Below are positions 20,632-21,003 of a DNA stretch of 26,328 bases, one piece after another (positions within the stretch are counted from its first letter, which is position 1; every line of letters begins with the position of its first letter). The translations under genes were made by a program, and so were the position numbers. Under the pieces are notes generated by a model that saw only the letters and a program-made list of their open reading frames with translations, was not told the DNA's origin and made no database searches. Origin of the DNA: a virus. Where the stretch lies: positions 1 to 26,328 of the IMG/VR virus record IMGVR_UViG_3300027754_000373; one strand, given 5' to 3'.

Positions 20632-20663
20632 CAAAGGTAAATAAAAAATTACATATATCCAAA
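20632..20663 (-). promoter_or_regulatory. Bacteroidetes host-type promoter of the CAP gene
   Basis: On the minus strand TTTG (20663-20660), 20 nt, then TACCTTTG (20639-20632), matching the Bacteroidetes -33 TTTG / -7 TAnnTTTG consensus. The ATG follows 4 nt later, so the transcript would be leaderless or nearly so. Confidence 0.75.
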
Positions 20664-20664
20664 T

Positions 20665-20964
20665 TTATTCAGCTTTTTTTTCTAATATTTCATAAATTAT
20701 TTTTATAATTTCTGGAACACCATATTTTTCACGCCATTCATTTTCTTCTAAATTTAAACTTTTAATGTGGTCATCATATAATTCATATAATTTATCACTA
20801 TGAATTAAACAATTTATGTTGTATTCTACCAGTATTGATACGATTGTCGCACAAACCATTTGACCACTAATATGCGTAATCCAATCACATTCATCGGTTA
20901 AAATATCAATAGAAACATTGTATTTTTCTAAAAGTTCTTCTTCTGTTATATTTAATTTTCCCAT
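20665..20964 (-). CDS. Hypothetical protein of the antisense accessory pair
   Basis: 99 residues starting MGKLNITEEELLEKYN. It is acidic and probably all-helical, with a hydrophobic middle (MVCATIVSILVEYNINCLI, about 36-54) too polar in its surroundings to be called a membrane segment with confidence. Three cysteines are present. I do not recognise the family. It is upstream of the CAP gene on the same strand, 37 bp apart, but each gene has its own host-type promoter with the same 20-nt spacer, so the pair forms a module whose expression probably differs from the surrounding late genes. No signal peptide is seen. Confidence 0.7.
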   Translation of the reverse strand: MGKLNITEEELLEKYNVSIDILTDECDWITHISGQMVCATIVSILVEYNINCLIHSDKLYELYDDHIKSLNLEENEWREKYGVPEIIKIIYEILEKKAE

Positions 20965-20971
20965 AATACTT

Positions 20972-21003
20972 CAAAGGTACTGATTTTTTTTAATAAAAAC
21001 AAA
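20972..21003 (-). promoter_or_regulatory. Bacteroidetes host-type promoter of the 20665-20964 gene
   Basis: On the minus strand TTTG (21003-21000), 20 nt, TACCTTTG (20979-20972), then 7 nt to the ATG. Identical elements and spacing to the promoter at 20632-20663. Confidence 0.75.

Follow-up and report, generated by a model that had tools for sequence, protein, structure and literature searches.

Which polymerase reads two genes that run against the late genes around them, and at what stage of infection? The question is raised by the late region of a T4-like phage, analyzed here over a window that comprises the complete IMG/VR record of 26,328 bp. Between a 384-aa late gene and the tail-tube gene, the window has a slot filled by two minus-strand genes, one encoding a CAP-superfamily protein and one a protein of 99 aa (Table 1). 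A preliminary description of this DNA assigned the phage to a Bacteroidetes host and took the pair for a cargo module (moron), transcribed from host-type promoters by the unmodified host polymerase, either at once on infection or in a carrier state.

Table 1. Features of the antisense slot and its surroundings (positions in the window).
Feature	Position	Strand	Description
Tail sheath	16016-18853		Match to phage profiles
384-aa late gene	18934..20088	+	Function unassigned; left border of slot
Inverted repeat	20065..20102	.	Perfect, 10 bp; across the overlapping CAP and 384-aa stop codons
CAP gene	20085..20627	-	Exported CAP-superfamily protein, 180 aa; CAP fold; PF00188 in all ten aligned family members
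CAP gene host-type promoter	20632..20663	-	TTTGGATATATGTAATTTTTTATTTACCTTTG; -33 TTTG 20660-20663, N20, -7 TACCTTTG 20632-20639
99-aa gene	20665..20964	-	Five-helix protein, conserved CDW(I/V)T motif; family unassigned
99-aa gene host-type promoter	20972..21003	-	TTTGTTTTTATTAAAAAAAATCAGTACCTTTG; -33 TTTG 21000-21003, N20, -7 TACCTTTG 20972-20979
Late box 1	21023..21030	+	TATTTATA; 51 bp from antisense -7 element
Late box 2	21074..21081	+	TATTTATA; 51 bp beyond box 1; 35 nt before tail-tube ATG
Tail-tube gene	21117..21605	+	phrog_4542, E 5e-26; right border of slot
Baseplate hub	22240-23610		Match to phage profiles

Results

Promoters of the Antisense Genes

As the preliminary description had stated, TTTG-N20-TACCTTTG precedes both minus-strand genes, and a scan of the whole window finds it nowhere else (two sites vs. 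0.025 expected). With their N20 spacers, both sites have the distance of about 19-20 nt between -33 TTTG and -7 TANNTTTG that characterizes sigma ABfr promoters, and G is absent from both central positions of each -7 element, in line with the form TAHHTTTG (PMC6847099). The element TACCTTTG alone also occurs only in these two places, and with 1.5 occurrences expected (first-order Markov resampling) it is not rare in itself. The CAP promoter starts directly past the stop codon of the 99-aa gene. A different signal serves the surrounding genes, again as described before: the late box TATTTATA is present at 20 sites in the window vs. 7.9 expected and precedes most late genes. A sigma-70 promoter scan returned fewer sites than in shuffled sequence.

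The assignment to the Bacteroidetes housekeeping type is borne out by conservation in orthologues. The recovered relatives comprise 29 loci of the 99-aa family and 13 of the CAP family; of the CAP loci, 12 have the full TTTG-N18..21-TANNTTTG and one does not, and in the 99-aa family 19 loci have the -7 box and 10 are without it, with the reservation that several of these contigs are near duplicates and the locus counts not independent. The single CAP-locus exception reads TACCTTCG, and in L175 and L176 the CAP promoter fits an upstream ATG in the same frame. In L153, L154 and L156 the boxless 99-aa gene lies behind a 517-aa antisense gene that has a box, which suggests that the two genes form an operon. 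Retention of the promoters by the orthologues indicates that those of both antisense genes are functional. Their identical spacing is real but not special, since relatives use N19 and N20 alike.

Distance from Promoter to Start Codon

The ATG follows the -7 box at 4 nt in the CAP gene and at 7 nt in the 99-aa gene, just as given in the preliminary description. Across seven relatives these distances are bimodal, with 22 cases at exactly 4 nt, where controls average 0.8 and reach 5 at most, few at 5-11 nt and a broad group from 12 nt on, and the distances from TATTTATA to the ATG are split similarly (25 at 3-4 nt, then mainly 10-18 nt). In F. johnsoniae many transcripts start 4-5 nt past the -7 element, and 87% of the leaders are longer than 10 nt (PMC6847099). 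The phages share the TTTG/TANNTTTG promoter with this bacterium, yet differ from it by a distinct class with the ATG at exactly 4 nt. Given such a start, a distance of 4 nt places the beginning of the transcript on the A of the AUG and implies that the CAP mRNA would be leaderless (predicted start 20627). For the 99-aa gene, whose 7-nt distance belongs to the thinly populated range that separates the two classes, a leader of about 3 nt is predicted (start about 20967). The earlier expectation of leaderless or nearly leaderless transcripts thus agrees with the CAP geometry, which recurs in relatives, and in its weaker form with the 99-aa gene. The literature searches made returned nothing relevant on Bacteroidota phage promoters of the leaderless or TANNTTTG type.

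Strand and Promoter Class in Relatives

We surveyed 92 distinct sheath-to-tube intervals for ORFs of at least 60 aa with a box within 75 nt upstream. Strand decides the promoter class in the slot: TANNTTTG stands before 61/91 antisense vs. 4/113 sense ORFs (Fisher 4e-24) and TATTTATA before 5/91 vs. 50/113 (1e-10), both P values ignoring relatedness. Counts by family are the safer measure, and here the -7 box is mostly carried in nine of 19 antisense families vs. one of 13 sense families. About a third of the antisense slot ORFs are without a -7 box.

Two large relatives, of 205 and 162 kb, have the host-type promoter as a mark of their early region. Only one half of these genomes has full sites in front of genes, the half with genes for RNA ligase, IF3, dNMP kinase, Thg1-like, DnaJ, PARP-like and poly(A)-polymerase-like proteins; in the structural half no full sites occur near starts. 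In seven relatives, 47 of the 100 full N19-20 sites lie within 60 nt of a start vs. about 4% for permuted -7 boxes; the effect is nearly gone with N21-26 spacers, the optimum being N19-20. As a check of the method, T4 has TATAAATA near starts (9/13).

Two genes behind such promoters deserve mention in their own right. The IF3 gene of a large relative (L108:15199-15696, +) encodes both domains; IF3 is known to affect leaderless mRNA. The PARP-type ADP-ribosyltransferase gene at L092:16858-18147 (-) is reminiscent of T4 Alt/Mod in role only.

The cultured Flavobacterium phage immuto has TATTTATA near starts (22/42), and this common signal supports the Bacteroidota host assignment made earlier. 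Immuto does not have the full host-type motif near its gene starts, so the host-type early promoter characterizes a clade rather than Bacteroidota phages in general. Of the named phages, Microcystis phage Mel-JY01 (PP395634.1; L186, L190-L192) comes closest in tail sheath and tail tube. Its slot is empty and TATTTATA precedes more of its genes than TATAAATA does (10 vs. 3), so that its stated host may be worth a check.

A Constant Distance to the Divergent Late Box

New in this study is a constant distance, kept despite a saturated spacer, that separates the -7 element of the 99-aa gene from the late box divergent to it. In 14 regions of the 99-aa type, the first opposite-strand TATTTAT[AT] lies at 51 bp (sd 0.85, range 50-53), a result slightly favored by our choice of the candidate nearest 51 in three regions with two -7 candidates. 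Neighboring distances vary more (sd 1.6-6.0), the second late box follows 40-57 bp beyond the first, and many spacers, compared in pairs, show no more similarity than after shuffling. The rule does not extend to CAP-first and endonuclease-first slots. Possibly, the fixed pair provides mutual exclusion of the early antisense and the late sense polymerase.

Occupancy of the Slot

Wherever the flanks were retained, relatives of both genes occupy the same slot beside the tail tube, always in antisense. As expected of a moron, the cargo is missing from relatives at the same place, 36 of 91 slots having no antisense ORF of at least 60 aa, and at the level of sequence it has its own promoter independent of the surrounding operon. 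These two features uphold the interpretation as moron-like cargo; the idea of one fixed two-gene module is rejected, as L085-L088 have the 99-aa gene but no CAP gene, and L175-L179 the CAP gene but no 99-aa gene. About 20 of the antisense slot ORFs encode members of one family, some 500 aa in length, that matches DUF723, DUF4379, REase_MTES_1575 or homing endonucleases; in L177-L179 one of them adjoins the CAP gene. Further antisense genes of the slot include one for another CAP protein (in L021) and those for lipoprotein-like proteins and for small proteins of the membrane. By a simple rule (no trained predictor) exported-type families number eight of 19 in antisense vs. none of 13 in sense. 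Judged by these contents, the slot appears to be a hotspot common to early-type, moron-like cargo and homing-endonuclease-like genes.

At the left border, the stop codons of the CAP and 384-aa genes overlap by 4 nt. The inverted repeat across them (-15.4 kcal/mol, z -3.0; without T tract) is also present in L082, weak in L083 and not seen in L014, hence not common to all relatives, and may possibly act as a two-way terminator.

The Two Proteins

The N-terminus of the CAP protein resembles a signal peptide. The protein scores 19.7 bits against PF00188, just below the cut-off of 21.1, but all ten aligned members of its family match the profile (best E 1.1e-5). The model (pLDDT 81) has the alpha-beta-alpha CAP fold, with 4d53 (Z 9.0, rmsd 3.0, 105 residues) and 4h0a (Z 8.3) as matches; rows 1-39 of the fold search (Z 5.1-9.0) are almost all CAP/SCP/PR-1 proteins, the next row dropping to Z 3.0. 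H63, H65, E69 and H126 are invariant in the family and may include residues of the cavity, which in the superfamily are two His and two Glu. The gene has a dN/dS of 0.22 vs. its closest relative L171. A search by two peptide patterns found no relatives in bacterial genome contigs, and on this basis a host origin of the gene is rejected.

Among the fold matches is enterococcal PrgA, a surface-exclusion protein (PMC10588982). Fold and export signal are common to the phage protein and to PrgA and the superfamily, whereas the phage protein is short and single-domain and PrgA a long, stalked, plasmid-encoded protein of the cell wall; the likeness implies no shared function. As its fold and export signal suggest, the role of the CAP protein is most likely a change of the envelope, e.g., one hindering superinfection.

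The 99-aa protein gives a confident five-helix model without credible relatives. Weak matches to ROS_MUCR, Sarcoglycan_2 and HEPN-like folds were isolated, not common across the family, and were discarded; this negative result does not point to a new fold. The dN/dS of the gene is 0.23 vs. its closest relative L146. Defence-system profiles matched neither gene, and no named phages with either were found.

Other Features of the Window

A third antisense gene of 55 aa (15688-15875, -) lies just upstream of the tail sheath. It has a weak Pfam match only and what we take to be a ribbon-helix-helix look, possibly of a small DNA-binding protein. The gene is preceded by an operator-like inverted repeat, AGTATGA-N6-TCATACT, and by TATTTATA, with a hairpin past its stop; orthologues in L020, L022-L025 and L033 have TATGACAAA...TTTGTCATA there. 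A GIY-YIG/NUMOD3 homing-endonuclease gene (3841-4488, +) is flanked by an SNF2-type helicase gene and the late gene that comes next. Late proteins encoded at 18934 (+) and 23941-25653 (+), and also in L098, L121, L125 and L130, have a common start, K-(I/L)-x-I-T-(E/K)-x-Q-Y-x-x-L, that might be a targeting or cleavage leader.

Discussion

The explanation that we favor, and regard as fairly probable, is that the pair constitutes early-type cargo of a T4-like Bacteroidota phage, carried at an insertion hotspot flanked by the tail-sheath region and the tail tube, read early by the host polymerase and shut off late, with the CAP protein exported. As the host-type promoters are kept in most relatives, the genes are probably early and read by the unmodified host polymerase. 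Together with the main sigma factor, this enzyme would transcribe the two genes to the left, each from its own -33/-7 promoter, with the CAP transcript starting on its AUG and the 99-aa transcript having its short leader. The pair would be on at infection, along with the early genes of the same promoter. Upon redirection of the polymerase to TATTTATA by the phage, rightward transcription from box 1 and box 2 would take over and probably shut the antisense promoter down. The CAP protein would reach the periplasm or the surface and most likely alter the envelope. The sequence itself gives the promoters and their conservation, the promoter classes tied to strand, the clustering in the early region and the CAP fold; timing, shut-off and protein function are our inference. 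A more tentative extension is a phased divergent early/late switch, in which the -7 element would lie about five helical turns from box 1 and the late holoenzyme would cover the antisense -33, the early gene going off as the tail-tube promoters come on, combined with a leaderless class with starts on the AUG that is common to early and late genes of the clade.

A different origin of the same arrangement seems unlikely, but deserves most attention among the alternatives and is partly compatible with early cargo. The slot could be a homing-endonuclease hotspot in which CAP, 99-aa and lipoprotein genes hitch-hike by gene conversion, the promoter stemming from early-expressed mobile genes and the cargo having no need to help the phage. 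While the endonuclease-like antisense ORFs, including the one beside the CAP gene, and the many slots without antisense ORF fit this scenario, there is no endonuclease in the window's own slot, both genes are under purifying selection (dN/dS about 0.2), and the CAP and 99-aa families are found only in this slot, suggesting long residence and not recent spread.

That the antisense transcript itself is the function, regulating the neighboring late genes or priming replication, is improbable. The conservation of both proteins at these dN/dS values, the unrelated protein families under the same promoter class and the many relatives without antisense genes argue against it, despite a promoter that is directed away from the tail tube and keeps a constant distance to the late box and the precedent of T4, in whose annotation antisense ORFs lie in the late region at an origin. 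Like the window pair, repEA/repEB of T4 oriE are antisense genes in the late tail region; they overlap gene 5 and accompany an origin, whereas the window pair occupies an intergenic slot, encodes conserved proteins and has its own host-type promoters.

Still less weight goes to a carrier or prophage-like state served by the genes as lysogenic-conversion morons. A host-type promoter is readable without phage factors, but the neighborhood is that of T4-like phages and ordinary early genes use the same promoter. We found nothing in support of the carrier state considered earlier, nor did we see an integrated copy, the two tail-tube relatives in bacterial genome contigs lying on contigs of about 3 kb each, which by co-binning gave no information on the host. 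Finally, chance matches in AT-rich DNA, conceivable for TACCTTTG alone given its expected frequency, are rejected by the rarity and position of the bipartite motif, its conservation in orthologues and the strand contrast across slots.

The early-cargo explanation places the pair close to known systems. Phage morons (PMC7067206) are likewise extra genes among late genes, with their own host-type promoter and absent from many relatives. The slot pair differs in belonging to a T4-like phage without a sign of lysogeny, in a promoter that is the phage's own early class, and in its single slot, constant antisense orientation and fixed late-promoter distance.

T4 imm and sp have early-type timing, as proposed for the window pair, and sp is periplasmic, as expected for the CAP protein. 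The likeness is limited to timing and location; imm and sp lie in the early region, whereas the window pair is antisense among late genes.

In summary, phage cargo under its own promoter is nothing out of the ordinary, but this pair is an unusually clean case in its fixed slot, strand and early class and, for one gene, its fixed late-promoter distance. Promoter class alone would predict early vs. late genes of uncultured Bacteroidota phages from sequence, and phage proteins directed at the host envelope can be sought in one defined slot. The constant 51-bp divergent spacing and the leaderless geometry of exactly 4 nt make sharp, testable claims on expression timing in hosts without Shine-Dalgarno use.
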